The notes beneath the pieces were generated by a model. That model was not told the DNA's origin. It saw only the letters and a program-made list of their open reading frames with translations, and did not search any database. Below, piece after piece: positions 10,766 to 32,300 of a stretch of DNA of 64,000 nucleotides; position 1 is the stretch's first letter, and each line of letters starts with the position of its first letter. The position numbers were made by a program, and so were the translations under genes. The stretch lies in contig NZ_FNWW01000001.1 in assembly GCF_900108515.1 (NCBI RefSeq), forward strand, positions 496,001 through 560,000, read 5' to 3'. Origin of the DNA: Halobacillus karajensis. GTDB lineage: Bacteria; Bacillota; Bacilli; Bacillales; Halobacillaceae.

Positions 10766-11704
10766 TCATGTATACATATACCGCATCATCACATGGGCAG
10801 CGAGTCGACTCGTCATATCGCGGAAATCTTTGGTCGGATCGACTTCTACAATATCCACCCCCTTCACTAAAGGATGTTGGGAAGCCATAGCTACACTACC
10901 AAGCAGTTCTCGTGCCGTCAGTCCGCCTGGTCCGATAGCCGGGCACCCAGGCGCAAACGCTTGGTCGACCGCATCCATATCGACGGACAAATAGATGGTG
11001 TCACATTTATTTTCCAATTTCTGTATGGCCTGGTCTGTAATAAACTGGATACCCTTCTCTTCTACGTCAGCCATGGTGTAGGTGTGGATGTTGTGTTTTT
11101 TGGCGTAATCGGCATAGGTTTTGGCATTAGAGAAATCGCGGATTCCGATTTGGCAGAGGTCTTCTCCCCAAAGAACCCCTTCTTCGATTAAGCTTCGGAA
11201 TGGGGTTCCGTTCGTACGGCCACCGTCTTCTATGTTGCGAAGATCATGGTGAGCATCCCATTGAATGACACCAATTCTGCCAAACTTTTCTTTAAAGGCC
11301 GAAATACTAGGAAAACTGACTCCGTGGTCACCTCCGAGCATTACGTACTTTTGGCAGGCTTCGGTCTCCAGCATTTCTTTTACACTCGTTTGCATCCGCT
11401 TCAAGGTTTCACCAGTATCCGTCGGATGGACCGGTACATCACCGAAGTCTAACAGCTTCATATTCTCGTAATCTTCATCCTTCTCCCCAGAATACGTACT
11501 GTACGATCCCAAAGCTTTTCTTATGGTACCAGGGGCTTCCGAAGCCCCTGATAAAGATATCGAAGTTTTGGAAAAAGGAAGGCCAATCACCCCGATATCC
11601 CCTGTTTTCCTCTCTTCATAAGGAGTCAATGTTTCATCCACTTTTGTTGTGTAACGGTCTTTGAATCTAGCATTCCTATTCGGTTTGAGGTACTGAAAAG
11701 ACAC
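10766..11704 (-). CDS. hutG: Formimidoylglutamase
   Basis: A 312-residue manganese enzyme of the arginase/agmatinase fold that hydrolyses N-formimino-L-glutamate to glutamate and formamide, the last step of the hut pathway. Metal-binding motifs are clear: [10 protein letters not shown], then [11 protein letters not shown], and [18 protein letters not shown]. The GTG at 11704 follows AAAGGAGGGG and overlaps the end of hutI by 29 bases. The longer frame upstream lies inside hutI and has no ribosome site of its own. Last gene of the hut operon. Confidence 0.93.
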
Positions 11705-12947
11705 GCGCGCCCCTCCTTTCCCATACGTTTCGCCCATTCTTCCATACGATTTCGGCATGGTTGGCGGCATAATGATAGGGAATATATTTGTAATTCGGAA
11801 CATCCCATAAAACCACATCCGCTTTTCTTCCCACCTGCAGACAACCGGCCGTATCTCCTCGCCCAATCGCATGAGCCGCGTTGACCGTCACACCGTTCCA
11901 AATCTCTTCCGGTGTCATTTTCATTTTTAATGCAGCAAGGGACATGATCATCTGCAGATTGTAGGTCACACAGCTGCCCGGATTGAAATCGGTCGCCAAA
12001 GCAACAGCCGCTCCGGCATCGATCATTCGTCTCGCATCGGCATAACGGTCTTTTCCTAAGTAAAAGGTAGTGCCTGGTAGCAATACGGCCACTGTCTCTC
12101 CCCGGGACAGACTTTCAATTCCACCTTCCGAAGCTGCCACAAGGTGATCTGCTGAAGCTGCTCCCATCTTCACCGCAAGTTCTGTACCTCCGAGCGGATC
12201 AATTTCATCGGCATGAATTTTAGTTTTGAACCCTAGTTCCTGTGATGCTTTCATAAACCTTCGCGATTGTTCGATCGTGAATACCCCTGTTTCGCAAAAA
12301 ATGTCTGTGAACTCTGCCAAGCTCTTCTCGCTGATTTCCGGCAACAGTTGAATCATTTCCTCAAGGAATGCCTCTTCCCTTCCTTTATATTCAGGCGGGA
12401 TGGCATGGGGCCCAAGGAAGGTTGAGACTAGATCAAGAATCCCTTCATCGTTTAACCGTTTGACAATACGTAGCTGCTTCAGCTCCGTATCCCTATCCAG
12501 ACCATAGCCACTTTTCGCTTCCATTGTCGTCACACCGTGACCGGCCATTTGTTCAAGCGTTCGTTTAGCTTTCCCAAAAAGCTGCTCCTCCGTTTCAGAC
12601 CTTGTCGCTTGAACAGTAGATAAGATGCCTCCCCCTTGTTTAAGAATCTCTAGATAGGGGACACCGGCCTGTTTCAAAGCCAGCTCATTCTCCCGGGAAC
12701 CACCAAAGACGAGATGGGTGTGCGGATCAACAAGACCTGGTGATACAGTTTTTTCCAGCGCATCAATCCGTTCGGCGGCTTTTTTGTTTTTGCTTTGTTG
12801 GTGTGGGCCGATCCAGGCGATGATTTCATCTTTTATGGCAATGGCCATATTTTCCTGCACGTTGAGCTCTTTCATGGCCTCCCCTTTTAAAGGGCCTTCC
12901 GCCGGTAAAATGAGTTGGCCGATATTTTCAATTATTGTATCGTACAT
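11676..12947 (-). CDS. hutI: Imidazolonepropionase
   Basis: A 423-residue metal-dependent amidohydrolase that opens the imidazolone ring to give N-formiminoglutamate. Signatures: [19 protein letters not shown] (metal His pair), [20 protein letters not shown], and [11 protein letters not shown] (metal Asp). Its ATG overlaps the hutU stop by one base (TAATG), showing translational coupling. Length matches the family norm of about 420 residues. Confidence 0.96.
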
Positions 12948-14611
12948 TATTTCCCCCTCCTCTTCATCGGAATATCCAATCCATAAGCTCTCGCGTTTTC
13001 GACTGCGTCCTCATAACCGGCATCGGCATGACGCAAGATGCCCATCCCGGGGTCTGTCGTCAATACACGCTCCAGCCTCTTTTCAGCTACGTCTGTACCA
13101 TCTGCGACAGCAACCATTCCAGCATGAAGCGAGTATCCCATTCCGACACCGCCTCCATGGTGGAAAGAAATCCATGATCCACCAGCGGCCGTGTTGATCA
13201 ATGCATTCAATACAGCCCAATCACCGACGGCATCACTTCCGTCGATCATCGATTCTGTCTCCCTGTTTGGTGAGGCTACCGATCCACAGTCCAAGTGATC
13301 CCTTCCAATGACAACAGGGGCGCTCAACTCGCCTGTTCGAACGAGCTCATTTATGGCCATCCCCATCTTCTTCCGTTCTCCATATCCGAGCCAGCAAATT
13401 CTTGACGGAAGCCCTTGAAACTGCACTTTTTCTTGGGCCATATCAATCCACCGCAGCAGTTTTTTGTTCTCTGGAAACAGTTCTTTAATAAGCTGATCGG
13501 TTCGATGAATGTCTTTCGGGTCTCCTGAAAGGGCTGCCCATCGGAAGGGTCCTTTTCCTTCACAAAACAGGGGACGGATGTAGGCGGGAACGAATCCTGG
13601 AAAATCGAAGGCATCTTTCACGCCTTCTTCCAATGCCACTTGTCGGATGTTATTGCCGTAATCGAAGACGATGCTGCCTTTTCTTTGAAATTGCAGCATA
13701 AGCCCCACATGTTTGGCCATCGACTTAGAGGCAAGCTGGACATACAGATCTGGGTCTTTTTGACGCCATTTATCCGCTTCTTTTAATGAATAGCCGACAG
13801 GGACGTAACCATTGAGGGGATCATGGGCAGAGGTTTGATCTGTCACGATGTCAATGTTTACCCCTTTGTGCAACAGTTCCTCATGGATTTCCGCTGCATT
13901 TCCTAAAAGAGCGATCGAGAGCGCTTCCCCATTAGCCCTGGCTTCTTTTGCCCACAAAACCGCTTCATTAATGGAATCTGTTCGAACATCGCAGTACCCG
14001 GACTGTATTCGCTTTTCAATTCTGTCTGGATCGACTTCTACTGCAATGACGACGCCTTCGTTCATGGTCACAGCAAGCGGCTGTGCACCACCCATGCCGC
14101 CAAGCCCAGCCGTCAGTGTGATCGTACCTTTCAATGAACCGTTAAAATGCTTCTCGGCAAGGGAAGCGAATGTCTCATAGGTACCTTGTAAAATCCCTTG
14201 AGAACCAATATAAATCCAGCTTCCTGCCGTCATCTGGCCGTACATCATTAGTCCTTTTTTATCAAGCTCATGGAAATGCTCCCAATTCGCCCATTTCGGT
14301 ACAAGAACCGAATTAGACAGCAGAACTCTCGGTGCCTGCTCATGGGTTTTAAACACTCCGACCGGCTTTCCTGACTGGACAAGCATCGTTTCGTCTTTTT
14401 CGAGCCGTTTCAGTGTGGCTACAATGGCATCGAAGGCTTCCCAACTGCGGGCAGCCTTGCCGATTCCGCCATAAACCACTAACTCTTCCGGCTTTTCAGC
14501 TACTTCAGGGTCAAGATTGTTGCAAAGCATCCGCAGTACCGCTTCCTGTTCCCACCCTTTGCACTGTAATTCTGTTCCCGTTTTCGCTTTAATCTTACGT
14601 GTTGTCGACAT
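12947..14611 (-). CDS. hutU: Urocanate hydratase
   Basis: A 554-residue NAD+-containing enzyme converting urocanate to imidazolonepropionate. Family hallmarks include the glycine-rich NAD motif [37 protein letters not shown] with its conserved Cys, and [20 protein letters not shown] near the C-terminus. The ATG at 14611 follows GGAGGAGAAAC and overlaps the hutH stop by 17 bases; the longer frame starts inside hutH and is not needed. Length matches known HutU. Confidence 0.97.
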
Positions 14612-16136
14612 ATGTTTCTCCTCCTTCATGGACCGTTCTCCATTTATTCCAGTCAAAAAAATCACCTCTCAGCCATGCATCCATTTTTTCTATATCATGT
14701 GAAAATATGCGATCCTCGGTAATCGTCGGTACGACTTTACGTGCTCTATTCCATAAATCCTGTGTAAGCCCAGACGCTCGTTCAATCCCTCTCATCTCCA
14801 GAGCTTGCATACTGCAAATCAATTCAATGGCAGCCACTTTTGACGCATTTTGGATGACCATTGTGGCATGCCGAGCTCCAGTTGTCCCCATGCTCACATG
14901 ATCTTCCTGATTAGCGGAGGATGGAATAGAATCCACACTTGCCGGGTGGGCGAGGGTTTTATTTTCGGACACTAACGAGGCAGCCACATACTGGACGATC
15001 ATCAGTCCTGATTCTAATCCCGGATTGGTACTTAAAAAGGGTGGAAAATCATTCAGTTGCGGATTGACCAGTCGTTCGACTCGACGTTCTGCTATGTTTG
15101 CAAGTTCACTCACAGCTATTTTTAAATAATCCATAGCAAAGGCGATCGGCTGTCCATGGAAATTACCGCCCGATACGACCACTTTTCCTCCTTCTAAAAG
15201 GAGCGGGTTATCTGTCGCCGCATTCATTTCGATGGTCAGTTTTTCCCGGACATAGTTAAGTGTCTGCCATACCGCCCCATGTACTTGTGGAATGCACCTT
15301 AGTGAATAAGCGTCTTGCACCCTCTTCTCTCCTTGAAAAGTGACTAGGTGACTCCCATTGATCAAATGCCGCATACGTTCTGCGACCACCATTTGTTCTG
15401 GATACCCACGCGCCTCATGGATACTCGGATGAAATGCATCACGAATGCCTTCAAGAGCCTGCAGCGTCATACTTGCCACCCAGTCACATTGCAATGCGAG
15501 ACGCTCTGCTTCGATATAGTTGATCACACCGACAGCCGTCATCGCCTGCGTCCCATTTATGAGCGCAAGCCCTTCTTTTGCTTTCAATACCAGTGGCTGT
15601 ATCGATTCTTTTTGATATACGTCTATCGTGGGAAGCCTTTCTCCTTCAAAGTAAACTTCTCCTTCTCCCATCAACACGAGCGCCAAATGGGCAAGCGGTG
15701 CCAGGTCGCCAGACGCCCCGAGCGACCCTTGTGATGGAATAACCGGATGAATCTCTTTATTAATCAAATCACGCAGTCTTTTCACGACCGCCTCCCGTAC
15801 ACCTGAAAAACCCTTCATAAGCGCATTCAGCCGTAGTACCATCATGGCCCGACTCACTTTCTCTGGAAAAGGTTCCCCGACTCCACAGGCATGGGAACGG
15901 ATTAAATGGAGCTGCAGGCTATCAACATCCTGTGCAGCGACTCGCACATCACTCAATTTTCCAAACCCCGTGTTAATCCCATATACGGTATGTCCTTTCG
16001 CTACTATTTCTTCCACTGTCTCTCTGCTCGCCCGGACATCAATTAAACTTGCTTCTTCTAAGCCGACTTTTTCGTTCTCCCAGCAAATCTGTTTCATTTG
16101 CTCAATCGTTAGGTCTTTCCCATTTAATTCGATCAT
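14595..16136 (-). CDS. hutH: Histidine ammonia-lyase
   Basis: A 513-residue lyase that removes ammonia from histidine to give urocanate. The Ala-Ser-Gly triad that cyclises to the MIO cofactor is at residues 141-143 in [16 protein letters not shown]. Other marks are [24 protein letters not shown] and the [19 protein letters not shown] stretch. The ATG at 16136 follows AAAGGGGG; the longer frame runs back through the attenuator hairpin and into hutP, so it is not the start. Confidence 0.97.
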
Positions 16137-16181
16137 CCACATCCCCCTTTCAAATTGAAAAGATTCTGGTGGATTTTCTAC

Positions 16182-16223
16182 AAAAAGGGGCGACAATGGC
16201 ATGGGAAATACCATTGTCGCCCC
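16182..16223 (-). terminator. hut operon attenuator hairpin
   Basis: GGGGCGACAATGG and CCATTGTCGCCCC form a perfect 13-base stem with an 11-base loop, ending in five Ts on the minus strand, between hutP and hutH. This is where the B. subtilis hut operon has the terminator that HutP overrides. Confidence 0.92.
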
Positions 16224-16240
16224 CTCATCGCTTATGACTA
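16224..16240 (-). promoter_or_regulatory. HutP RNA-binding site (NAG-N4 repeats)
   Basis: On the minus strand TAG-TCAT-AAG-CGAT-GAG gives three NAG triplets spaced by four bases, immediately 5' of the attenuator stem. HutP is known to bind RNA with NAG triplets at four-base spacing when L-histidine and Mg2+ are present. A further TAG lies at 16249-16251. Confidence 0.8.
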
Positions 16241-16255
16241 TAGGCCACCTATTCT

Positions 16256-16693
16256 TTATATATGATTGATACCAAGTCCAAATGTCTCGTGTTCCAAACC
16301 TTTTACGGGAGCCCCGATCGTTCCATAAAAAGCGACAGCGATCCACTCACCTTCGTCTTCCCGCTCGTAGGGCCTCCCACGAACCACCGCAAATCTTAAC
16401 CCGACGGTCCGCATCATATTACCGACACCAATGTGCCCCCGGGTCACCCCCTGCAATGATTCTAAAATGGCATGATAAAGCGCATGCGTTTCACGATACA
16501 CCTGCTCCGAAATGATTCCATTTCTTTTCGCAGCCGTCTCCACTGCTGCGATCACTTTTTGTACATCCATCGAACCTGCTTTGCCCTGGCAGTACTTTAT
16601 ATTTTCAAAGCTCCCTGAAAAAAGGGACTTCTCTTCTTCATCCAATGAAGCCAGCAGCATCGCAACTTTTCCTATTTTCACCGTCTGGGTCAT
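16256..16693 (-). CDS. hutP: Hut operon positive regulatory protein (antiterminator)
   Basis: A 145-residue RNA-binding antiterminator, close to the B. subtilis length. It matches HutP in the opening ([17 protein letters not shown]), the middle ([20 protein letters not shown]) and the end ([22 protein letters not shown]), which carries His residues of the type that bind metal and histidine. First gene of the operon; it controls read-through of the hairpin just downstream. The start follows GGTGGAG. Confidence 0.96.
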
Positions 16694-16762: not shown

Positions 16763-16796
16763 AAAAAAGATGACCTCGTCCAAATGGACCAGGTCA
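16763..16796 (-). terminator. Terminator of the yesL-like gene built from the dispersed repeat
   Basis: TGACCTCGTCC and GGACCAGGTCA pair with one mismatch, followed on the minus strand by six Ts. The arm sequence is a diverged copy of the GATGACCTGGTAC repeat and overlaps the stop codon. Confidence 0.85.
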
Positions 16797-17489
16797 CCCA
16801 TTATTTTCCATACCACTCAATTTGATATAGAGTCGGTAGTAAGCGGAGAAGGTGAGAAAGGCGATCAGTGATCCTGTGAAGATCGGAATGATCAATGGAA
16901 AGATATAGAGACTGACAGCGAGAATGAATCCTGAAGTCATCGCTACCGTCAAAAACAAGATCGGACTGACAAATGTAAGCATGAACGCTTTTTTCATGAC
17001 GGCTCTTACATTCATATCAAAATGGACAAGTGTACTAAACGTATTGATCGTGTATACAAACAACAAGATTCCTAGAATAAGAAATAGATTCATAAATAAA
17101 CGACTGTTGGTAGAAAAGTAGTAAAGGTCGGCGGCCAATATTACCCAAAGGACCGTGAGAACGATCCCAGCTTTCATGCTGTTCTTATAATTTTCTTTAT
17201 AGTAGCTGACGTATGACCTGTCTGCTGTATCTTTCTGATCTTTCCTCACCCAGTCCCGTGCTTGAGCAAACAAGGCTGTAGTAGCAGGGAAAAATAAGAA
17301 AGGAAGCAAGAGAACTAGCGGTGGTACCAGGTACCATACGTCTTGTGTGTTCCCGATATTCAATAAGCTTAATAATAATAGTGCGATAGGCAAATTGAAT
17401 AACGCCCATTGAAGGTTTGTGAGTGAAAATTTACTAATCCACTCGCTGACCGCGTATAATCCTCCTCTTATTCCTGATGACTGTTTCAT
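16794..17489 (-). CDS. YesL-like DUF624 membrane protein
   Basis: A 231-residue integral membrane protein of the DUF624/YesL family, with about five or six helices, an RGGLYAVSEWISKFSLTNLQ N-terminus and a SYYKENYKNSMKAGIVLTV linker typical of the group. YesL proteins are usually encoded in carbohydrate ABC-transporter operons and have no assigned activity. Here it is the distal gene of the sugar cluster, 62 bases after a hairpin that follows the isomerase gene, so it may be expressed partly by read-through. Confidence 0.85.
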   Translation of the reverse strand: MKQSSGIRGGLYAVSEWISKFSLTNLQWALFNLPIALLLLSLLNIGNTQDVWYLVPPLVLLLPFLFFPATTALFAQARDWVRKDQKDTADRSYVSYYKENYKNSMKAGIVLTVLWVILAADLYYFSTNSRLFMNLFLILGILLFVYTINTFSTLVHFDMNVRAVMKKAFMLTFVSPILFLTVAMTSGFILAVSLYIFPLIIPIFTGSLIAFLTFSAYYRLYIKLSGMENNG

Positions 17490-17511
17490 AAATTTCCCCT
17501 TCCTAATACAG

Positions 17512-17540
17512 AAACCCCTCCAAAGTCCGAGGGGTTTTTA
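17512..17540 (-). terminator. Hairpin after the sugar isomerase gene
   Basis: AAACCCCTC and GAGGGGTTT form a nine-base stem with an eight-base loop. The T-run is longer on the plus strand, so termination on the minus strand may be partial. Confidence 0.65.
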
Positions 17541-17550
17541 GAATCCTTGT

Positions 17551-18519
17551 TTATGCCCACCACATCTCTGCAGCCGGCTCCTCAATGAATACAGATTTCA
17601 AGTTTTTCACTGCTTGATTGAACCCTTCATTGATCGACATGATCGGATCTTCATGCTCAATACTTACGACATGATCATACCCGTACGTACGAAGAGCACT
17701 GATAATATTGGACCATTCTTCGACTCCGTGGCCGTATCCAACTGAACGGAAGCTCCATGCACGTGTTTGGACATTTCCGTAATTCTGCATATCTGTCAGA
17801 CCGTACATGTTCACATTATCTTGGTCTATGTATGTGTCCTTGGCGTGAAAATGATGGATCGCATTTTCTTTCCCCAAAATCTTGATGGCAGCTACCGGGT
17901 CAATGCCCTGCCACCACAAGTGACTTGGATCAAGGTTCGCACCAATTGCATCGCTTGTCGCTTCACGAAGTTTCAGCATGGTGTACGGCGTATGGACTAA
18001 GAATCCTGCATGCAGTTCAAGACCGACTTTCACTTGATGTTCTTCAGCGAACTTCCCTTGCTCTTTCCAATAAGGGATCAGTTTTTCATTCCACTGCCAT
18101 TCTAACACGTCTGCGTATTCAGGGGGCCATGGTGTTACCGGCCAGTTCGGTGCTGTATCATTTTCGTGCCCGCCCGGTGTACCGGAGAACGTATTGACTA
18201 CAGGAACCCCCATCAAGCTTGCAAGCTTCACTGTTTTCACAAAAGCTTGATGAGATTCTTCTGCAAATGCTTTGTCTGGGGAAATAGGGTTCCCGTGGCA
18301 GCTGAAAGCACTGATAGTAAGTCCACGCTCATGGACTTTATCCAAATATTCTTTTCGTTTCTCTTCACTTTCAAGCAATTCATCTGCGTTACAATGAGCA
18401 TCCCCAGGATAGCCGCCTGTTCCAATCTCCACAGCTTTTAAGCCAGCTTCTTTCGCATGATCGAGCATTTCTTCAAAAGATTTGTCGGCAAATAATACGG
18501 TGAAAACGCCTAATTTCAT
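17551..18519 (-). CDS. Sugar isomerase/epimerase (xylose isomerase-like TIM barrel)
   Basis: A 322-residue AP-endonuclease-2/xylose-isomerase-like barrel. It shows the usual metal-ligand strands: AVEIGTGGYPG, SAFSCHGNP, VGLELHAGF, ANLDPSHLWWQGI, HHFHAKDTYID and HVVSIEHEDP with late Glu/His. Members of this fold act as epimerases, isomerases or 3-keto-glycoside lyases/hydrolases. Co-located with two Gfo/Idh/MocA dehydrogenases and a ThuA-like protein, it is a candidate for processing a 3-keto sugar (inference). Length is normal and the start follows GGAGGAG. Confidence 0.85.
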   Translation of the reverse strand: MKLGVFTVLFADKSFEEMLDHAKEAGLKAVEIGTGGYPGDAHCNADELLESEEKRKEYLDKVHERGLTISAFSCHGNPISPDKAFAEESHQAFVKTVKLASLMGVPVVNTFSGTPGGHENDTAPNWPVTPWPPEYADVLEWQWNEKLIPYWKEQGKFAEEHQVKVGLELHAGFLVHTPYTMLKLREATSDAIGANLDPSHLWWQGIDPVAAIKILGKENAIHHFHAKDTYIDQDNVNMYGLTDMQNYGNVQTRAWSFRSVGYGHGVEEWSNIISALRTYGYDHVVSIEHEDPIMSINEGFNQAVKNLKSVFIEEPAAEMWWA

Positions 18520-18540
18520 TATGAATCTCCTCCACTCTGG

Positions 18541-19578
18541 TTATAGTTTCACACTTGTACTTGTTTCACTGCTTTGGTAGATCGCTTCCATCAGCCGGGT
18601 CACTTTAAGCGCCTGTTCAGGCTTCACGACTAATTCATCCTGCCCTAAACAGCTATCGACGAAGTTATTAGCTTGGGCAAGACCTGGTGTTGGTTCGCCT
18701 TCGCGAATTTTTGCGGTACTATCCATCAAGGCTCCATACTTCGCCTGATAAAGCTCAAATGGATAGACACTGAGGCCGCCATCGACTCCTGAGATCGTAA
18801 GTGATGTGTGGTCTTCCTTAATATTGGCAGCCCACGAACACTCAAATTGCATCGATGCGCCATTTTCAAACGTAATATAACTCGTCACATGGTCATCAAC
18901 ATTAAACGTTTCATGATCGAATGGGCCCCAATCATTGACTTGTCCCGGTGTTTTACTTAACCGGTCATACGTACGGCCTATCACTTCGACAGGCTTGGGA
19001 TCATCAAGAAGCCATAGGGCCAAATCAAGTAAATGACAGCCAAAATCAATCAGGCTTCCTCCTCCCTGCAAGTCTTTATTTGTAAATACACCCCATCCGG
19101 GTACTTTGCGGCGGCGCATCGCCTGAACTCTGGTTACAAGAGGCTCCCCGATATCGTTATTAAGGATTGCTTTTTTCGCCAGCTGAGCTTCTGGTGTGTA
19201 CCGGTAATGATAAGCAATCGAAAGCAGACGATCATTCTTCTCTGCCGCTTCCAACATCGCTTCACATTCCGCAGCGGTGATAGCCATCGGTTTTTCGCAT
19301 AGCACATGAACCCCTGCTTCAAGAGCAGCGATGGAGATTTCTGCATGGAACTTATTCGGCGTACAAATAGTGACGGCATCCACATGGGGAAACATTTCCT
19401 TGTAATCGTTACAAACTAGAGAAATGTCGTAAGTCTTGGCTGTTTCTTCCGCTCGTTCTTGATTCACATCGTGGACAGCTGTTATTTCTACTTTACTTTT
19501 CATATCAAGGAAAGAGGGAATATGCCGCCCCTGGGCAATTCCCCCTACTCCTATGATCCCCATTTTCAAGCGTGTCAT
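18541..19578 (-). CDS. Gfo/Idh/MocA family NAD(P)-dependent sugar dehydrogenase (1 of 2)
   Basis: A 345-residue oxidoreductase with an N-terminal Rossmann fold (MGIIGVGGIAQGRHIPSF) and the family motif HVLCEKPMAITAAECEAML, in which EKP carries the catalytic Lys. The C-terminal domain contains GGGSLIDFGCHLLDLALWLL with the conserved Asp and His (D-x-G-x-H-x-x-D). It overlaps the next dehydrogenase gene by four bases. Likely oxidises a sugar hydroxyl, possibly C3 of a glycoside; substrate unproven. Confidence 0.9.
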   Translation of the reverse strand: MTRLKMGIIGVGGIAQGRHIPSFLDMKSKVEITAVHDVNQERAEETAKTYDISLVCNDYKEMFPHVDAVTICTPNKFHAEISIAALEAGVHVLCEKPMAITAAECEAMLEAAEKNDRLLSIAYHYRYTPEAQLAKKAILNNDIGEPLVTRVQAMRRRKVPGWGVFTNKDLQGGGSLIDFGCHLLDLALWLLDDPKPVEVIGRTYDRLSKTPGQVNDWGPFDHETFNVDDHVTSYITFENGASMQFECSWAANIKEDHTSLTISGVDGGLSVYPFELYQAKYGALMDSTAKIREGEPTPGLAQANNFVDSCLGQDELVVKPEQALKVTRLMEAIYQSSETSTSVKL

Positions 19579-20615
19579 TTGGTGACTTTCTCCAAGCTGC
19601 TGATTTCTCTCGTTTCGCCTGAGCGGAGGGCGCCGAGGATGATTTCCAATGACTTCATACCTTCTTCTCCTGTGATGAGTGGTTGCGTATCATTCAAGAT
19701 GCTTCCAACAAAATGGTCAATGACATGGGAATTGCTTTGGCCGCCTTCTTCATTGGACTGAATCTTCCCAAGTTGATAATTCACGATGTCGCCATTCGTG
19801 TACTGAGCAACTAAAGAGTATTCAGGGTCATCTTCTAGGCGAAGGGTTCCTTTTTCTCCATAAATCACTGTGGAGTTATCTTCATTCGGGTTATAAGCCC
19901 AACTTGCTGCCATTGTTCCAACAATGCCTGATTCAGATCGAAGGATACAAACCGCATTATCATCAACCGTAATGTCTTTTTTCGCATTGTTTTCAATAAA
20001 TCCTGCCACATCGACGAATTCTTCACCAAGAAGGTAACGGAGTAAATCTGCCTTATGTACTCCTAAATCACCCATGGCGCCGATAAATGCCTGTTCCTTT
20101 TTAAAGAACCAGCTGTCTTCCCCTTCTGCGCTCCATCCTTCTGGGCCGCCATGACCAAAGGTTGTACGGAAACTGTACACTTTCCCAAGTTCCCCAGAGG
20201 CAATCAGTTCTTTTGCCTTCACATGGGATGGTACAAATCGCTGGTTGTGAGCAATCATCAGTTTCTTGCCGTTTTGTTCAGCAGCCTGAATCATTTCTTC
20301 TGCTTCCTCTTTAGAAGTTGCCATCGGCTTCTCACATAGGACATGATGACCAGCCTTCAAAGCAGCAATGGAAACAGGGGCATGGAGGTAGTTCGGCAGG
20401 CAGACACTTACAGCATCGACCTCTTCTTTCCTCAACAACTCTTCATAATCGGTATAAACAGCCGCGCCATACACGTGACCGACTTTACGTGCGCGTTCTT
20501 CCACAATGTCACATACCGCCTGAATCTCAATGTTTTTATTCGCTTTATATTCAGGAAGGTGACGGTTTTGAGCAATACTTCCGCATCCAATTACAGCAAT
20601 TTTCAATGTTGTCAT
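19575..20615 (-). CDS. Gfo/Idh/MocA family NAD(P)-dependent sugar dehydrogenase (2 of 2)
   Basis: A 346-residue paralogue of its neighbour. The Rossmann motif is AVIGCGSIAQNRHLPEY, the catalytic motif HHVLCEKPMATSKEEAEEM, and the C-terminal active-site segment AMGDLGVHKADLLRYLLGEE. The ATG at 20615 is eight bases after AAAGGAG; an ATG six bases earlier is too close. The two dehydrogenases differ well beyond simple duplication, so they probably act on different steps, for example oxidation of the glycoside and reduction of the released 3-keto sugar (inference). Confidence 0.9.
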   Translation of the reverse strand: MTTLKIAVIGCGSIAQNRHLPEYKANKNIEIQAVCDIVEERARKVGHVYGAAVYTDYEELLRKEEVDAVSVCLPNYLHAPVSIAALKAGHHVLCEKPMATSKEEAEEMIQAAEQNGKKLMIAHNQRFVPSHVKAKELIASGELGKVYSFRTTFGHGGPEGWSAEGEDSWFFKKEQAFIGAMGDLGVHKADLLRYLLGEEFVDVAGFIENNAKKDITVDDNAVCILRSESGIVGTMAASWAYNPNEDNSTVIYGEKGTLRLEDDPEYSLVAQYTNGDIVNYQLGKIQSNEEGGQSNSHVIDHFVGSILNDTQPLITGEEGMKSLEIILGALRSGETREISSLEKVTK

Positions 20616-20628
20616 GGTCATAGCTCCT

Positions 20629-21357
20629 TTACGATTTAGTTGAGATTTCTTCTAAAGGTTGAGCATTTCCGTAAACAGGGGTTGGTGTTTCCGTGTTTTT
20701 CACCCATTTCACACCATTGCGGATAACCTTTTGGACTTCTTTGTTGTAATAAGTCGGATAGGTTTCATGACCCGGACGGAAATAAAAGACCTTTCCTTTG
20801 CCACGACGGAAAGTCGCTCCACTACGGAACACTTCCCCACCTTCAAACCAGCTGACGAAAATCAATTCTTCCGGTGTCGGAATATCAAAATGCTCCCCAT
20901 ACATTTCTTCTTTTTCAAGTTCAATAAACTCTCCGATCCCTTCTGTAATTGGGTGGCTCGGATCGACGACCCAGAGGCGCTCCTTCTCATCTGCTTCCCG
21001 CCATTTCAGATCACAGGAAGTCCCCATCAATTTCTTGAACGGCTTAGAAAAGTGGGCCGAGTGCAAAACAACAAGCCCCATTCCGTCAAGAACACGTTGT
21101 TTTACTTTTTCAGCAATTTCGTCTTGCACTTCCTCATGCGCTTTGTGCCCCCACCAGACGAGGACATCTGTTTCCGCAAGAACCTCATCTGTTAAGCCGT
21201 GCTCTTTTTCATCTAAGGTCGCTGTTTTTACATTTTCGTGGTCTTCCCCAAGGAAATCTGCAATCGCGCTATGGATCCCTTCAGGATAAATATCAGCAAC
21301 AACCTGGTTCTCTTTTTCATGTCGGTTTTCGTTCCAAACAAGTACGTTCATATTCAC
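20629..21357 (-). CDS. ThuA-like (trehalose-utilisation) protein
   Basis: A 242-residue class I glutamine-amidotransferase-like fold protein of the ThuA family. The N-terminus [11 protein letters not shown], then [48 protein letters not shown] and the terminal [20 protein letters not shown] are characteristic. In Sinorhizobium, ThuA acts with the dehydrogenase ThuB in trehalose, maltitol and sucrose breakdown through 3-keto disaccharides. Its start overlaps the lacI-type gene stop by four bases, and it lies 13 bases before dehydrogenase 2, so the set is one operon. Confidence 0.9.
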
Positions 21358-22427
21358 TTCTCCCCTTCTTTTCTTTCTTCATGTCCTTTATCTGTTTCCG
21401 CGTTTCTTGAATAACAGGAATCACGTTCAACGATCACTGTCGGAATGATCACACTTTTTTTAATCATATCCGGTCGATTCAAAAGATCAATCAAATTCCT
21501 TGCTGATTCATGTCCTAACTGAAAGGATTGTGTGTCGACAGTAGTCAGAGCTGGATTGGATAAACGGGCAATCATCGTGTTATTGAACCCGACAATGCTC
21601 ATATCCTCTGGAAGCTGTAATCCATGTTCTGTGAGTGATCTCATTACCGTCAAAGCATTATAATCATCAGTTATGACCAACCCAGTCGGTGGGTCCTTGA
21701 CATCCAGCAGTTCTTCAACCACTTGTTCTGCATCAGCAAAGCCAGTTTGAATATTTTTTTGTAAATCCTTGTCTTCCTTTAAATTACCGTTAGCCAACGC
21801 CTGTCGGTATCCTTCTAGTCGGTCCCTCGCTACCTCAAAATGATAATCCCCTCCGATAAACCCGATCCTTTCATGCCCAAGGTTCATCAGGTATTCGGTG
21901 ACTTCCTTACTTGCAAGAACGTTATCGTTATCCACGTACATCGTTTCACTCGCCTGACCGACCGGTTTGCCAATCATCACGAATGGGAAGTTACACTCTC
22001 GTAAATAGGGGACGACTTTATCATCCTGGCGGGAATAGAGGACGATGACGCCATCGACTCGTTTCCCCTGCACCATTTTGACAACCTCTTTGAAAATCGC
22101 TTCCTCTGTATTGCCTGTCGTTAAATAGATACTGTAATCTTCCTCATGACAAGCATCACTGATCCCCCGCAGTAATTCTGAGAAAAAAGGGTTATCGAAA
22201 GAGTGGACGGAAGAAACTTTCGTTACAATTCCAATGGTTTGTGTTGATTGGTTGACGAGCACACGACCATTGTAGTTAATGTGATAGCCAAGCTCCTCCA
22301 TGACCTTTCTTACTTTCCTCTTTGTTTGTTCGCTGATTCTCGGACTGTCAGAGATGACTCTAGATACCGTAGAAGGAGCGACCTTTGCTTCCCTGGCCAC
22401 ATCTTTAATTGTGACGGACACATTCAT
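21354..22427 (-). CDS. LacI family transcriptional regulator
   Basis: A 357-residue repressor. The N-terminal helix-turn-helix ([20 protein letters not shown]) is followed by the hinge helix region and a periplasmic-binding-protein-like effector domain, including [39 protein letters not shown] and [11 protein letters not shown]. It is closest in style to MalR-type regulators. It sits between the transporter genes and the catabolic genes, and palindromic LacI-type operators lie upstream of the binding-protein gene, so it probably represses this cluster until a sugar is present. Confidence 0.92.
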
Positions 22428-22712
22428 CCACTCCTTTGCTCCTTCATTTCACTCTTCTTCATCATTCTTTTGCTATTCCCATAAAAGCCCCCTTACCTTA
22501 AACTCCCTTTTAATCGAATCCATTGTTCCATAGATTCCGTCACAACCTGAATGGATCGTTTCTCTATCGATTCAAAGTCCATGATCGTGTGGAATTTTCT
22601 TGACAGATGAGAGCACACAAGGGTCAGCGCACCCTTAACGGAAAGCGAACCGATCCCCGGAACCCCATGATTAGTCCTTCAAGTTTTGAAAAATGGTCAA
22701 CTTTAGACTTAA

Positions 22713-23537
22713 TTATTTAACGGCTCCTTCAGAAACACCGTTAATGATCTGCTTCTGGGCGAAGAAGTACCCGATGATAACGGGCAGAATCGCAATGGTC
22801 AGTCCCGCAAGCGCCAGGTGCCATTGTTTCGTATACTGACCAAAGAAGTAGAACATCTTCAACGGAATCGTTGCATTCGATTCACTCAAGACGAGTGATG
22901 GAAGGAGGTAATCGTTCCAAATCCAAATTACATTCAATATCGCGACAGTGACGGAAATTGGTTTAAGCAGCGGGAAGATGATGTACCAGAACGTCTGGAA
23001 ACGGTTCGCTCCATCGATAATGGCAGCTTCGTCCATGGATTTCGAAATCCCTGTCATCGCCCCGTGATAAAGGAAAATGGACAAACTGCATCCAAATCCC
23101 AGATACATGAAGATCAATCCACCGGCGTTTAACATATCTGCTTGTCCAAAAATAGAGACAAGTGGAATCATGACAGACTGGAAAGGAATCAACATTGCGG
23201 CGACAAAGATGAAAAAGATAATCCCGCTTAATTTACTCTTGTTCCTTGCTAATGCATACCCAGCCATGGAAGAAAACAAAATAATGATTGCGATACTTAA
23301 TCCTGTGATCATCACAGAGTTGAATAGAGACTTTAAGAACTCCAAGTCAATAAATGCTTCTACAAAGTTTTCAAAGACTAATTGTTCTGGGAAACCAAGA
23401 ACCCCTGAAAAGATGTCACGTTTGCTTTTAAAAGCATTGACGATCATCAAATAAAAAGGAGCAATCCAGATTAAACCAAGCAGAAGGCCGAGAATTTCAA
23501 TGGAAATTAAATTTCTTTTTTCCTTATTCTTTTTCAT
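22713..23537 (-). CDS. Carbohydrate ABC transporter permease (MalG type)
   Basis: A 274-residue permease with six predicted helices and the cytoplasmic EAA loop (DEAAIIDGANRFQTFWYIIF PLLKP region, about residues 180-205) that docks the ATPase. The C-terminus ends in the usual short INGVSEGAVK tail. It overlaps the MalF-type gene by one base. No ATPase gene is in the cluster, so a shared MsmX-type ATPase elsewhere in the genome probably powers it, as known in Bacillus. Confidence 0.93.
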   Translation of the reverse strand: MKKNKEKRNLISIEILGLLLGLIWIAPFYLMIVNAFKSKRDIFSGVLGFPEQLVFENFVEAFIDLEFLKSLFNSVMITGLSIAIIILFSSMAGYALARNKSKLSGIIFFIFVAAMLIPFQSVMIPLVSIFGQADMLNAGGLIFMYLGFGCSLSIFLYHGAMTGISKSMDEAAIIDGANRFQTFWYIIFPLLKPISVTVAILNVIWIWNDYLLPSLVLSESNATIPLKMFYFFGQYTKQWHLALAGLTIAILPVIIGYFFAQKQIINGVSEGAVK

Positions 23538-24397
23538 TACATCTCAACCTCCCGTTTCTTGTTGTAATACACTTGTGTCAACGCAATCACCGCTACAATC
23601 AGGAAGAAAATGACGGCTTTTGCCTGAGCGTAGGCCATTTGGTTATCGGAGAATGCCGTACGAACGATTTCCATGGCCACCATTTGAGTGGAGTTAAACG
23701 GTCCACCATTGGTAAGGGACAAGTTTTGGTCATAAATCTTGAAGGCCATAGAAAGTGTCAAGAACATGCTGACGGTAAAGGCCGGTGCAACCAATGGGAA
23801 TGTAATATTCTTGAATCGTTGGAAACTGCTCGCTCCATCGATTTTCGCTGCTTCGATCAGTTCCTTTGGAATGTTCTCCAGATACGCAATATAAATAATC
23901 ATGATATAACCCGCCATCTGCCATGCGGTCAAGATGACAAGTCCCCAGAAACCTGTGTTCGTTGTCGACAACCAGCCATTCAACCCTTCGATTCCTGTAA
24001 GGCCAGCAATATCTCCAAATACACTGATGAAAATAAACTGCCAGATAAACCCGAGAATTAAACCACCGATTAAGTTTGGCATGAAAAATACGGTACGCAA
24101 TAGGTTGCTGGACTTAATATTACGAGTGACAAGCAATGCCAGCCCAAGTCCCATAATGTTCAAGAGGATCACCGTGACGACAGCAAATTTAACGGTAAAC
24201 CAGATGGAATTCATGAATTCACTTTCCTGGAAAAGTTTGATGTAATTCTCAAAACCTATGAATGCATTTGCTGTAATCCCGTTCCAATCCGTAAAGGAAT
24301 AGAAAAGGCCATATAAGAAAGGAATGACGACGACAATTCCAAGCCCGAGAATAACAGGTGTAAGGAACAGCCAGAAAGATAAACTTCTATTCTGCAT
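23537..24397 (-). CDS. Carbohydrate ABC transporter permease (MalF type)
   Basis: A 286-residue permease, partner of the MalG-type protein. It has six helices and an EAA loop (IEAAKIDGASSFQRFKNITF). The ATG at 24397 follows TTGGAGGAG at normal spacing; the longer frame adds nine residues without a ribosome site. Substrate is unknown, but small glycosides or oligosaccharides are typical for this CUT1 group. Confidence 0.93.
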   Translation of the reverse strand: MQNRSLSFWLFLTPVILGLGIVVVIPFLYGLFYSFTDWNGITANAFIGFENYIKLFQESEFMNSIWFTVKFAVVTVILLNIMGLGLALLVTRNIKSSNLLRTVFFMPNLIGGLILGFIWQFIFISVFGDIAGLTGIEGLNGWLSTTNTGFWGLVILTAWQMAGYIMIIYIAYLENIPKELIEAAKIDGASSFQRFKNITFPLVAPAFTVSMFLTLSMAFKIYDQNLSLTNGGPFNSTQMVAMEIVRTAFSDNQMAYAQAKAVIFFLIVAVIALTQVYYNKKREVEM

Positions 24398-24438
24398 GTA
24401 TAACTCCTCCAATGCGCGGAACATTCCGCAGTTGTTTA

Positions 24439-24452
24439 TGGTATCGTTTTCA
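24439..24452. promoter_or_regulatory. Possible cre site between binding protein and permease genes
   Basis: Minus-strand TGAAAACGATACCA has one mismatch to the CcpA consensus. Position inside an operon is acceptable for roadblock control, but one mismatch in AT-rich DNA can occur by chance. Confidence 0.4.
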
Positions 24453-24570
24453 TATCATTGGAATAAAATATCCCATCTATTAACACACTTATCTATTTAA
24501 ATATCCTAATAGAGGGGATCTTTTATAGTACCGGTAAGGGCCCCTCCCCTTACCGGCTCCAATTCTTCCA

Positions 24571-25881
24571 TTACTGACGGGAATTTTCCCAATTCTTCGT
24601 GGCTCTTTTTTCTACTTCTTCCCAGCTGATATCTCCAGCAAGGTACTCTTGTACCGCTACTCCGAATGCATCTTCTGTCCAGCCCGTAGGAGCGCCAAGG
24701 AAGACCCAGCCTAATGTATTCCCTTCACTCGCATAGTCATAAATTTCTTGAGAAATCGGGTCTGCGATTTCCTGATCTTCATAGCCTTCATAAGCAGGAA
24801 TGAACTTAAATTCTTCTGTTACAAACTTCTTCCCTTCTTCAGATGTATACATCCAGTCAAGGAAGTCTTTACTTGCTTGAACGACTTCATCGTCCGATTT
24901 TTTGTTGACAACCCAGTAGTTTGGTACACCTACAGGAATACTGCCTTCATAACCTTCGACAGGAATTGGAAGCAAGCCTACGTTATTCTCAGCGAATTCC
25001 GGATCCATTGATTCGATTGTGTTATAAACCCAGTTTCCTTGTTGAATCATCGCTACTTTGCCAAGAGAAAAGTTTTCTTCCACCTGTTGCGAATAATCAA
25101 GGCTTAGTGTCGGTTGAACAGAATATTCATTTTGAAGGTCGATGAAACGTTTCATGTCTTCACCCATGGTAAACTCCACTGTATCTGCTTCATAAGCTTC
25201 CATAACATCGTGGTTAAACTCATCAGCCAGATAAGCATTAGCCAAATGGTTACCGATCACCCATTTTTCTTTCGCTGGGAATGCAAATGGTGCTTCGATT
25301 CCAAGCTCACTCTTTTGCTCTTCCAATGTTTGAACAGCTTCTTCCAGAGCTTCGAATGTGGTAATCTCTTCAGGGTTGATCCCCGCTTCTTCAAATACTT
25401 TCTTGTTATATAGAAGTCCGTAACCTTCCTGGTTAAAAGGAAGCCCTAAAACCTTATCATCGCGGGACACGCCGGAAAGCGTTCCTTCAAGGGCTGCATC
25501 AGCAGCTTTTGTATCAGAAAGGTCAGCTAAGTAATTCTCATACTCATCTACATCTGTCGGACCGCCAACATTGAAAACATCAGGTTCTTCGCCGGAAGAG
25601 AAAGAGGTCTTCAATGATGCCCCATAGTCATTTCCACCGCCGACCGTTTTGACATTAATATTCACATCAGGATTTTCTTCTTCATACATGGATACAAGTT
25701 CCTCGAACTGTTCTTTAAACTCTACTTTGAACTGGAATACATCTACCGTGACAGCATCTCCAGAAGCGTTATCATCAGAGCTGCCGCTATTATCATCCGC
25801 TCCGAAAGAGCACCCCGTAAGTGCAACGGTGGACGCTAATAATGCAGTCGCAATCCCAGAGTAAAATTTGTTTCTTTTCAT
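24571..25881 (-). CDS. Sugar ABC transporter substrate-binding lipoprotein
   Basis: A 436-residue CUT1-type solute-binding protein. It has a lipoprotein signal with lipobox LTGC (Cys about residue 23) followed by a flexible D/S/G-rich linker, then the fold signatures FKEQFEELVSMYEEENPDVN, GEEPDVFNVGGPTDV, GLPFNQEGYGLLYNKKVFEE and GKVAMIQQGNWVYNTIES. The ATG at 25881 is eight bases after AGGAG. First gene of the operon; it captures the sugar outside the membrane and passes it to the two permeases. Confidence 0.94.
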   Translation of the reverse strand: MKRNKFYSGIATALLASTVALTGCSFGADDNSGSSDDNASGDAVTVDVFQFKVEFKEQFEELVSMYEEENPDVNINVKTVGGGNDYGASLKTSFSSGEEPDVFNVGGPTDVDEYENYLADLSDTKAADAALEGTLSGVSRDDKVLGLPFNQEGYGLLYNKKVFEEAGINPEEITTFEALEEAVQTLEEQKSELGIEAPFAFPAKEKWVIGNHLANAYLADEFNHDVMEAYEADTVEFTMGEDMKRFIDLQNEYSVQPTLSLDYSQQVEENFSLGKVAMIQQGNWVYNTIESMDPEFAENNVGLLPIPVEGYEGSIPVGVPNYWVVNKKSDDEVVQASKDFLDWMYTSEEGKKFVTEEFKFIPAYEGYEDQEIADPISQEIYDYASEGNTLGWVFLGAPTGWTEDAFGVAVQEYLAGDISWEEVEKRATKNWENSRQ

Positions 25882-25911
25882 CTCATCCACTCCTATTTGT
25901 TTATTAATCTT

Positions 25912-25925
25912 TGAATCCGCTTACA
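25912..25925. promoter_or_regulatory. Probable cre site before the binding-protein gene
   Basis: Minus-strand TGTAAGCGGATTCA matches the CcpA operator consensus at 13 of 14 positions, 31 bases before the start codon. Confidence 0.55.
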
Positions 25926-25969
25926 TATCACATGTAAAAATAATGAGTTTTCCAACTTGTGCAACAAAA

Positions 25970-25985
25970 GCGCATACGTTTGCGC
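25970..25985. promoter_or_regulatory. LacI-family operator 1
   Basis: GCGCATACGTTTGCGC is a near-perfect palindrome with the central CG typical of LacI-family sites (one base pair breaks the symmetry). It shares the ten-base core ATACGTTTGC with operator 2. Confidence 0.75.
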
Positions 25986-26046
25986 AATTGGCTGTTAAAA
26001 AACTCATTGGCTTGTCCAACAATGAGTTATAAAAGTGCAATGAAGT

Positions 26047-26062
26047 GTGAATACGTTTGCAT
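26047..26062. promoter_or_regulatory. LacI-family operator 2 (degenerate)
   Basis: GTGAATACGTTTGCAT repeats the ATACGTTTGC core of operator 1, centred 77 bases away, about seven helical turns, a spacing that suits looping by a tetramer or two dimers. Confidence 0.55.
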
Positions 26063-29398: not shown

Positions 29399-32300
29399 TT
29401 ACTCTTTTGAGGCTCTTCGTCGGAAGAAGCCGGTGATTTTGTTGGAGAGGTCATCTAAGTATGTGTAAACGACCGGTATAAGCACAAGTGTGAAGAAGCT
29501 TGATACTGTTAACCCGAAAATGATTGTAACGGCTAACGGCTGCTGCGCTTCTGCCCCGCGTCCAATGCCGATAGCTAGCGGCACCATCCCTAGGACAGTG
29601 GTCAACGTTGTCATCAGGATCGGTCTAAGACGACTCGGTCCGGCTTCCAAAATCGCTTCCGTGCGATCATAAGATTTACGCCTCAAGATGTTTATATAAT
29701 CAACAAGGACGATGGCGTTGTTGACAACAATCCCTGCAAGCATAATAATCCCCACGAATGCCGGCAAGCTAAATGGCAGCCCTGTTACAAACAGTCCGCT
29801 CGATATACCTATAACCGTAGCAGGTAAAGAGAACATGATAATAAATGGGAACAAAAAATTTTCAAACTGAATAGCCATCACTGCATAAACAAGAAAGATC
29901 GAGAAAATCAAGGCAAGCGTTAAATCGCCAAAGGCTTCCTGCATGTCCTGGGCCTGGCCACCAATACTGTAGGAGTATCCATCAGGAAAATTCAGGCGCT
30001 CCAGCTCTGCGCGCACTTGTTCCGTTGCTGTTCCTAGATCGATATTGGAGACCTCCGCTTCAACATTTACTTGCGGCTGCTGATTTTGCCTCAGCAGGGA
30101 AACAGGACCCTGAACTTGGTTTAAATCAGCAATGGTTGCAAGTGGAATCAGGGTGCCATTTGGTGTTTGCACAGACATGCCTTCTAGATCAGCTATGGTT
30201 TGTCTTTCGTCTTCCGGGAGGAGGAAGCGAACATCAATCTCATCCGTTCCATCCCGATACCTTGTGGCCACCTGCCCATTAAACCCAAGCTGAACCTGGC
30301 TGATGACTTGTTGATCTGTAAGTCCGTATTGGGCGGCTTTATCCTGATCCACTTCTATCTGCATCTCCGGACGCCCTTCATCTGTCGAAGAGGTCGCATT
30401 TTGTATTCCATCTATATCATTCATAAGGTAAGCGACCTGGCCAGCCAGTTCATCCAACACTTCATATTCCGCCCCATTAATTTGCACTTCTAACGGTGCA
30501 CCGGTTCCTAAGCCTGCATTGAGTTCACTCACCTCAATTTCCGCACCTGGAATATCTGAAAGCGACTCATCGATCTCCTGCATGACCGTCTGTGTAGACT
30601 TTTCACGCATCGAAGGTTCAACAAGCTGGATGGTATAAGAAGCAAAATCAGAGGATCCATTTCCGACACTTCCCATTGTTCCTCCCCCAACAGAAAGGTA
30701 GCTGACATCAATGATTTCGCTGAAGTTCTCTATTTGTCCATCAATTTTTTCCGTAACCGCTTCTGTTTCATCGATGGATGTGCCCTCAGGCATATTCACA
30801 CGTATTTCCACCTGGCCCTGATCAGAGGGAGGAATGAATTCTGTTCCGATTAACGGAATAAGAGCGACACTCCCCGCAATTAACGCAAAAGTAACCGCCA
30901 TTGTCGTTTTTCTGAATTTTAATACCCAGCGGAGAAGGGACCGATAGCTATGATTCACTTTATCTAAGAAACGATTGAACCAATAGCGTCTCCCTTCTTC
31001 CCGGAGCGATTTCGTTAATAACTTCGAAGATAACATCGGGATCAATGTGACAGAAACCGCTAAGGAAGCAATAAGTGCGAACATAATCGTTAAAGCCAGT
31101 GGTGTGAATAATTCCGAGGCAATACCTTCCACAAAGATGATCGGCAAAAAGACAACCAGCGTCGTTGTGGCAGATGCCACAACGGCAGGCGCAAGCTCAG
31201 AGGCCCCCTTTTTCGCTGCTTCTACCATCGAATACCCGTGCTGCCGGTAACTGACAATGTTTTCTAAAATCACGATGGAACTGTCGACCATCATGCCAAT
31301 TCCGAGCGCCAGTCCTCCCATTGTAAGAACATTCAATGTTTCTCCTGTGAAATACATAAGGGTAAACGTCGAGATGATTGCAATCGGAATGGACAGTCCA
31401 ATGACGAGTGTCGCCCGGATACTTTTCAAAAACAACAGCAGGACTAATACCGAAAATATTCCACCAAGGATAATATTTAAGACCACACTATTGATGGATA
31501 CCTTTATAAATTCTGATGTATCTAAAACGATGCTGGACTGAACTCCCTCAGGCAAATCTCCTTGAATCTCTTCCATTCCCTCACGTACATTATCCGCCGT
31601 TTCTACTGTATTGGCATCCGTCTTTTTTAAAATGGAAAGAACAACAGAAGAGGACCCATTTACTTTACTGATCGTATTCGCAGCTGTAAGGGTTTCTTTG
31701 ACTTCCGCTATTTGGTCAAGTGTCACCTGGGCGCCTGATGAAGACTGGATGATTGTGTCTTTCACATCTTCAACAGATCCGAACTCTCCGTCTATTCGGA
31801 TTTGCAAATCTTTCTGCCCTTTTTGAATGGCTCCCGCTGAAGCAGATTGGTTAGAAGCATTCATGGCTTGGATTAAACTTTGGGAGTCAAGACCGTATGT
31901 AGCCATTTGGGCGCGGTTAACCAGGACTTGGACCTCTCTGGTTTTTCCGCCCTCGATACTGACGGAGGCCACCCCTTCCTGACGTTCAAGAAAAGGAACA
32001 ATTCGATCCTCTGCGACTTGCTGGAGTTTTTCCGGCGTATCGCCTGACAAACCGACGGTCATAATCGGCAGCTGTTGGGGATCAAATCGCAACACATTCG
32101 GATCTGAAGCACCTTCAGGCAAAAGGCCTGTCATTTGGTCGACATTTTCTCTGACCTCAAGGAGGGTGCTGTCAAGGTTTACTCCCGTGTTAAATTGCAT
32201 GAGAACCAACGACGCACCAGCCTGGGATTGGGATTGGAGCACCTCTAGCCCTTCGATACTACTCACAGAGGATTCCACAGGTCTACTGACAAGTTTCTCC

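Follow-up and report, generated by a model that had tools for sequence, protein, structure and literature searches.

A ThuA-containing gene module proposed to cleave alpha-glucosides through 3-keto intermediates in Halobacillus karajensis and related bacteria

In Sinorhizobium, the use of trehalose depends on thuA and thuB; thuA adjoins a gene of the Gfo/Idh/MocA (Gfo) dehydrogenase family, and the system includes an ATP-binding cassette (ABC) importer. Gene sets for 3-keto routes are known from other bacteria as well. The lgd operon of Bacillus smithii S-2701M (accession LC529899) encodes two Gfo-family dehydrogenases and, with LgdB2, a sugar-isomerase-like hydratase of 36 kDa, together with an ABC importer and a LacI regulator, and follows a scheme of oxidation, elimination, hydration and reduction (PMC7676230). 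The GlycDH-AtOGE-AtHYD-Gfo operon of A. tumefaciens uses the same four chemical steps, with a flavin GlycDH, the beta-preferring eliminase AtOGE, the TIM barrel AtHYD and a Gfo reductase (PMC10628242). Further relatives are the DgpABC puerarin system (PMC8563793, PMC11239390) and, by annotation, YcjQRS of E. coli. Here we describe a nine-gene operon in a stretch of 64,000 nucleotides from Halobacillus karajensis (contig NZ_FNWW01000001.1, positions 496,001 to 560,000; hereafter "the window"), for which an earlier note had proposed a Gram-positive route of glycoside breakdown through 3-keto intermediates. On balance we favour the view that this operon serves alpha-glucosides (trehalose, maltose, isomaltose, sucrose or similar sugars), which would be imported whole and cut by redox chemistry.

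The nine genes lie on the minus strand between positions 16794 and 25890 of the window and encode, according to Pfam, a solute-binding protein, two permeases, a LacI-family regulator, ThuA, two Gfo/Idh/MocA proteins (Gfo1 and Gfo2), a TIM barrel of the AP_endonuc_2 family (hereafter TIM) and a DUF624 protein. No Pfam glycoside hydrolase family was matched among them, and this gene set without a hydrolase is what the earlier note had described. Its ABC importer was found in part: the binding protein and both permeases are present, but there is no ATPase gene among the nine; a UgpC/MsmK-type ATPase is encoded elsewhere in the genome (C7:91938, 509 bits). The 4-bp overlaps of LacI with thuA and of Gfo1 with Gfo2, together with the gaps of 7 bp (ThuA-Gfo1) and 21 bp (Gfo2-TIM), would fit one transcription unit. 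The LacI gene sits inside the gene run and is preceded by a gap of 285 bp. A promoter scan gave 10 sites where shuffled sequences led us to expect 19.5, i.e., fewer, and a terminator scan gave 11 where 8.8 were expected, which is near expectation; no use was made of either.

From the gene content, the conservation, the family placements and the kept contact and active-site residues, all of which come directly from the analysis, we infer the reactions, the substrate and the identity of the cleaving enzyme as follows. The binding protein, which resembles PsMBP of Paenibacillus, and the two permeases would import the sugar, powered by a shared MsmK-type ATPase. Gfo2 would oxidise the non-reducing glucose at C3 with NAD+, and the 3-keto-glycoside would be cleaved by elimination, via ThuA and/or the LgdB2-type TIM barrel, which would release 2-hydroxy-3-keto-glucal along with the second sugar. 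Hydration of 2-hydroxy-3-keto-glucal to 3-keto-glucose would then fall to the metal-dependent TIM barrel, and Gfo1 (or Gfo2 itself) would reduce the 3-keto-glucose to glucose, regenerating NAD+. The net outcome would be hydrolysis without a glycosidase. The central idea of the earlier note, non-hydrolytic cleavage through 3-keto intermediates, fits the placement of Gfo2 with DgpA and YcjS, of TIM with AtHYD and the LgdB2-position proteins, and the similarity of ThuA to its Sinorhizobium counterpart. A Gram-positive version as such is not new: such pathways were already known from Bacillus smithii, for levoglucosan (PMC7676230), and from a Dorea-related gut bacterium, for puerarin (PMC8563793, PMC10628242). 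The novelty lies in the combination: the module, which is common among Bacillaceae and related bacteria, joins an LgdB2-type hydratase and a DgpA/YcjS-set dehydrogenase to ThuA and an importer of alpha-glucoside type.

The module was compared in 80 loci of other genomes, i.e., the 80 best among 584 matches to the window TIM. All are at least 77% identical to it, and they form a non-random sample with many loci from Halobacillus, where its nearest relatives are found (up to 96% identity). ThuA is present in 76 of these loci, Gfo1 in 78 and Gfo2 in 68. In all 64 loci that contain the four genes, their order is ThuA-Gfo1-Gfo2-TIM, on one strand and within 5 kb; with such an ordered core in 64 of 80 loci, the gene set is not a chance assembly. 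By these counts, the constant core consists of ThuA, Gfo1 and TIM, with more variation in the Gfo2 slot. In five of the 12 loci without Gfo2, a dehydrogenase related to Gfo2 (41-44%) follows the TIM gene, and the four of these dehydrogenases placed in the tree group with YcjS. The window's own transporter type is complete in 31 loci; the remaining loci contain either a second type of ABC transporter, an ABC set of maltose type or a gene of the phosphotransferase system (PTS; two identified). A DUF624 gene is likewise found in 31 loci, in 30 of them directly behind the TIM gene. Furthermore, a sample of 299 genomes from the order to which the window belongs was surveyed at E 1e-60 or better, with ThuA and TIM counted separately: a close ThuA occurs in 174 and a TIM of the window type in 199 (LgdB2-type proteins included), by which counts the gene set is widespread in this order. 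Among the matches listed in literature searches, with most subscription journals and bioRxiv outside their reach, there was no publication on this ThuA-Gfo-Gfo-TIM operon. Four Halobacillus loci (L008, L009, L010, L015) possess a gene for 795-797 amino acids with a secretion-type start behind the TIM or DUF624 gene; its product, of which the first 70 residues were inspected, might be a phosphorylase of GH65 type. One TIM relative of 420 amino acids (P0092) has two internal repeated stretches, which points to an error in the assembly or to an unusual protein.

The alpha-glucoside assignment comes from the importer. The best PDB match of the binding protein is 9xor, PsMBP of Paenibacillus FPU-7 (251 bits; next match, 68 bits), with 147 of 378 aligned residues identical (39%). 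For PsMBP, binding at 31 to 321 nM is reported with maltose, trehalose, isomaltose and sucrose, and no shift with cellobiose or melibiose (PMC13311272). Its contacts Lys62, Glu64, Glu162, Trp211, His216 and Trp291 are all kept in the window protein (K55, E57, E155, W210, H215, W287), and the six are also kept in 31 of 32 module-locus binding proteins with at least 50% identity and in 13 of 14 below 50%. Other genes that are often found near the module point to alpha-glucosides as well. Besides the GH13 genes of 16 loci (see below), these include PTS-IIBC genes, identified in two loci, and the gene of a sucrose phosphorylase, identified in one. A cluster of ROK glucokinase type lies near the module in 10 loci, and on a Priestia plasmid there is a maltose locus with pullulanase and glucokinase near it.

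The two dehydrogenases are only 36% identical and fall into separate clades, in line with the earlier description of them as different. In a tree of 63 rows, one 22-row set (support 100/99) unites Gfo2, the YcjS group, and DgpA together with a third dehydrogenase, and Gfo1 forms a clade of its own (100/99). The active-site residues Lys, Asp and His of the Gfo family are kept in both window proteins (K98, D185 and H189 in Gfo1; K96, D178 and H182 in Gfo2). The best PDB matches of Gfo2 are DgpA proteins (9m3d, 3e-71; 7xr9, 2e-67). DgpA oxidises many O- and C-glucosides, and 3-oxo-glucose re-oxidises it (PMC11239390). Judging from sequence, Gfo2 would start the pathway as a glucoside 3-dehydrogenase, and Gfo1, the more constant member, would reduce 3-keto-glucose, a role taken from the pathway plan only. 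Neither is LgdA, as they score 150 (Gfo1) and 137 bits (Gfo2) against a cut-off of 650 for NF052479; LgdC-position proteins form a separate clade with 24-33% identity. Matches to the NCBIfam dehydrogenase families of the Bacteroides BT_2158/BT_2159 system are also below the cut-offs (at most 58 bits versus 750 and 51 versus 650). As LgdA, LgdB1 and LgdC, three of the four defining genes, are missing, the operon was rejected as a member of the lgd type; it differs from it also in having no ATPase gene and in possessing ThuA and an alpha-glucosaccharide-type importer. A levoglucosan-type locus does occur elsewhere in the genome (C22:14790-21830, L116), with two LGDH-like genes just below the cut-off of 650 (604 and 643 bits), an LgdB1-type gene, importer genes and a broken LgdB2-like gene. 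A second sugar locus (C13:239000-258900, L161) combines two ABC sets and a GH43 gene with a 255-amino-acid TIM barrel and two Gfo proteins, one of them a Gfo1 paralogue (65% identical).

The common set of Gfo2 and DgpA, as well as the similar metal site and fold of the Dgp alpha-subunit type, could also speak for DgpABC-like deglycosylation of C-glycosides or aryl-glycosides. This appears very improbable: the beta-subunit is reported to be necessary for C-glycoside activity, and all nine genes are assigned to other families, so that none is left for it; furthermore, the importer type binds alpha-glucosaccharides. C-glycoside cleavage, which the earlier note had included, was therefore rejected. 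Among the fold matches of TIM, DgpC is a distant one.

The window TIM is the sister clade of the LgdB2-position proteins (98/93; 47-60% identity), and together with AtHYD they form a 34-row set (98/96) with YcjR outside. Note that AtHYD entered this tree with residues 136-322 only and that the four YcjR, IolE and own-genome rows are on long branches. A structural model of TIM is nearest to two solved structures, one of them AtHYD. LgdB2 acts as a hydratase on 2-hydroxy-3-keto-glucal, giving 3-keto-glucose in a reaction aided by Mn2+, and is also a weak eliminase that acts on 3-keto-levoglucosan with low affinity (PMC7676230); AtHYD was reported as a hydratase on preliminary evidence (PMC10628242). 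On the basis of these published activities, the window TIM is most likely a hydratase, and eliminase activity is possible. No second, LgdB1-like TIM gene is present among the nine. As YcjR falls outside the TIM/LgdB2/AtHYD set, a YcjR-type epimerase, also considered in the earlier note, was rejected; YcjQRS resembles the operon in YcjS and the importer, but its stretch as examined lacks ThuA and includes a kojibiose phosphorylase. The Pfam families of the dehydrogenases and of TIM are common to IolG and IolE, which would allow catabolism of inositol or scyllo-inosose. We give this hardly any credence and rejected it: the scores are far below the IolG and IolE cut-offs (for IolG, 169 and 114 bits versus 355), the IolG rows stand apart from Gfo1 and Gfo2, so that the grouping with inositol dehydrogenases that the earlier note regarded as refuting its idea was not seen, and the genome has a separate IolE above its cut-off (C6:106163, 402 bits). 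This IolE belongs to an inositol-type locus (C6:92000-111900, L162); no match in the genome reaches the IolG family cut-off.

For the cleavage step, ThuA deserves attention. It has a class I glutamine-amidotransferase-like (GATase-1-like) fold and is 67-68% identical to PDB entry 1t0b (376 bits), a structural-genomics entry named merely ThuA-like. Residues H99, H197, E151 and E155 do not vary among eight diverse ThuA proteins. For comparison, 20 lgd regions in 19 genomes were collected through matches to the LgdA family (E 1e-150 or better); such matches occurred in 20 of the 299 genomes, in 17 above its cut-off, and one genome with the match at a contig end (G256) was left out. LgdB1, LgdB2 and LgdC were named in these regions by size and place beside LgdA, and genes were counted at 55% identity for ThuA and 40% for LgdB1, with half of the query covered. 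All 20 lgd loci have LgdB1 and none has ThuA; of the 80 module loci, 76 have ThuA and none has LgdB1. The LgdB2-type TIM is found in both kinds of loci (18/20 and, by selection, 80/80). ThuA thus occupies the place of the LgdB1-type TIM barrel. AtOGE prefers beta-glucosides and leaves 3'-keto-maltose uncleaved (PMC10628242). The mutual exclusion, the shared LgdB2-type TIM and this beta preference suggest that ThuA may be the cleaving enzyme for 3-keto-alpha-glucosides. Only tentatively do we go further and propose for ThuA a carbohydrate-cleaving activity on a glutamine-amidotransferase-like fold: it would split 3-keto-alpha-glucosides as LgdB1 and AtOGE split beta links, within a modular pathway common among Bacillaceae and related bacteria. 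The paper on the A. tumefaciens operon makes no mention of ThuA (PMC10628242). Haloarchaeal plasmids (L138, L139, L144) carry ThuA proteins up to 66% identical to that of the window, mostly in other gene company within the stretches inspected, and a transfer of ThuA between domains is possible.

The window ThuA is 60% identical to Sinorhizobium ThuA, and the operon could accordingly represent a ThuAB-type 3-keto route for trehalose or sucrose, for which ThuA and one dehydrogenase would suffice and TIM would be a YcjR-like epimerase or isomerase of the 3-keto sugar. YcjS belongs to the set of Gfo2, and no TIM gene is annotated beside Sinorhizobium thuA-thuB within 6.7 and 16.7 kb of an incomplete gene table. 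We regard this as distinctly unlikely, with YcjR outside the set of TIM. ThuB, on a long branch with 3.1 changes per column, groups with LgdA and LgdC (99/97).

Several points weigh against the proposed alpha-glucoside pathway. ThuB, on its long branch, clusters with neither Gfo1 nor Gfo2. PsMBP Glu407 aligns, near a gap, with Trp404 of the window protein, and since transporters are exchanged between loci, the substrate of the enzymes need not be the sugar of the importer. AtHYD was reported inactive on 3-keto-phlorizin (PMC10628242), so that the window TIM may not cleave; its seven active-site residues are largely superfamily-wide, with six of seven kept in IolE, and the names LgdB1, LgdB2 and LgdC do not come from the B. 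smithii sequences themselves. Weak LgdB1-like matches below 40% occur in 11-17 of the 80 module loci, the two sets of loci were selected by different genes, and the exchange of ThuA and LgdB1 might reflect different substrates instead of one shared step. Nor is ThuA required for alpha links, as AtOGE slowly cleaves 4-nitrophenyl 3-keto-alpha-glucoside, an activated substrate (PMC10628242), which a Bacteroides lyase eliminates and hydrates; 3-ketotrehalose is hydrolysed by a protein of another family, the DUF1080 protein BT2157. Finally, hydrolysis may suffice: the genome encodes TreC (882 bits) and a second enzyme of glycoside hydrolase family 13 (GH13), and in 16 of 80 loci the module has a GH13 gene no more than 10 kb away, with a distance of at most 1.5 kb in 12 of these (one representative, the TreC-related protein of L050, was assigned by family search, and the proteins of the other 15 loci are 64-75% identical to it). 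Ordinary GH13 enzymes elsewhere might then hydrolyse the sugars, and the module would only salvage or repair 3-keto sugars and glucals from side reactions or import, in keeping with a TIM nearest to a hydratase of a late pathway step. This explanation seems unlikely to us, as the gene set has its own importer and regulator as well as a DgpA/YcjS-set dehydrogenase, the type that starts such pathways.

Upstream of the binding-protein gene there are two operator-like palindromes of LacI type, CGCAAACGTATGCG and ATGCAAACGTATTCA, and a cre-like site, ATGTAAGCGGATTCA, found by pattern match only (Table 1). In 19 of 22 other loci, the core GCAAACGTATTCA of the second palindrome likewise lies no more than 510 bases upstream of the binding-protein gene. 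This conservation is good footprint evidence for a candidate regulator site at 26048..26062; the end of this site is also the end of the region delimited in the earlier note (26062). On the same strand, downstream of the operon (11676-16693 of the window), are histidine-use genes for HutP, an aromatic amino acid lyase (HutH-like), urocanase and an amidohydrolase (HutI-like). An AcrB-type resistance-nodulation-division (RND) transporter (861 bits) is encoded upstream on the minus strand (29399-32476).

Table 1. Genes of the operon and putative regulatory sites, in window positions.
Feature	Position	Strand	Basis
Solute-binding protein, alpha-glucosaccharide (PsMBP) type	24571..25890	-	SBP_bac_1; PDB 9xor, 251 bits; contact residues kept
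ABC permease A	23537..24424	-	BPD_transp_1
ABC permease B	22713..23537	-	BPD_transp_1
LacI-family regulator	21354..22427	-	LacI and Peripla_BP_3
ThuA, putative 3-keto-alpha-glucoside cleaving enzyme	20629..21357	-	PF06283, 140 bits; 1t0b; fold; place of LgdB1
Gfo1, Gfo/Idh/MocA dehydrogenase, putative 3-keto-glucose reductase	19575..20621	-	PF01408; own clade; K98, D185, H189
Gfo2, Gfo/Idh/MocA dehydrogenase, proposed glucoside 3-dehydrogenase	18541..19578	-	DgpA PDB matches; DgpA/YcjS set; K96, D178, H182
LgdB2-type TIM barrel, proposed 2-hydroxy-3-keto-glucal hydratase, possibly also eliminase	17551..18519	-	AP_endonuc_2, 122 bits; tree; model
DUF624 membrane protein	16794..17489	-	PF04854, 60.7 bits
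Operator-like palindrome CGCAAACGTATGCG, LacI type	25971..25984	-	Pattern match
Operator-like palindrome ATGCAAACGTATTCA, LacI type	26048..26062	-	Pattern match; core GCAAACGTATTCA conserved
cre-like (CcpA) site ATGTAAGCGGATTCA	25912..25926	-	Pattern match only

If the proposed pathway is correct, many of these bacteria would cut common alpha-linked sugars oxidatively. It could also explain the PsMBP alpha-glucoside importer, whose gene has no carbohydrate-active enzyme gene nearby (PMC13311272). The proteins bear vague names in databases (sugar phosphate isomerase/epimerase, ThuA domain-containing protein, Gfo/Idh/MocA oxidoreductase); many such annotations could in that case be corrected, and the long-unexplained ThuA would gain a reaction.

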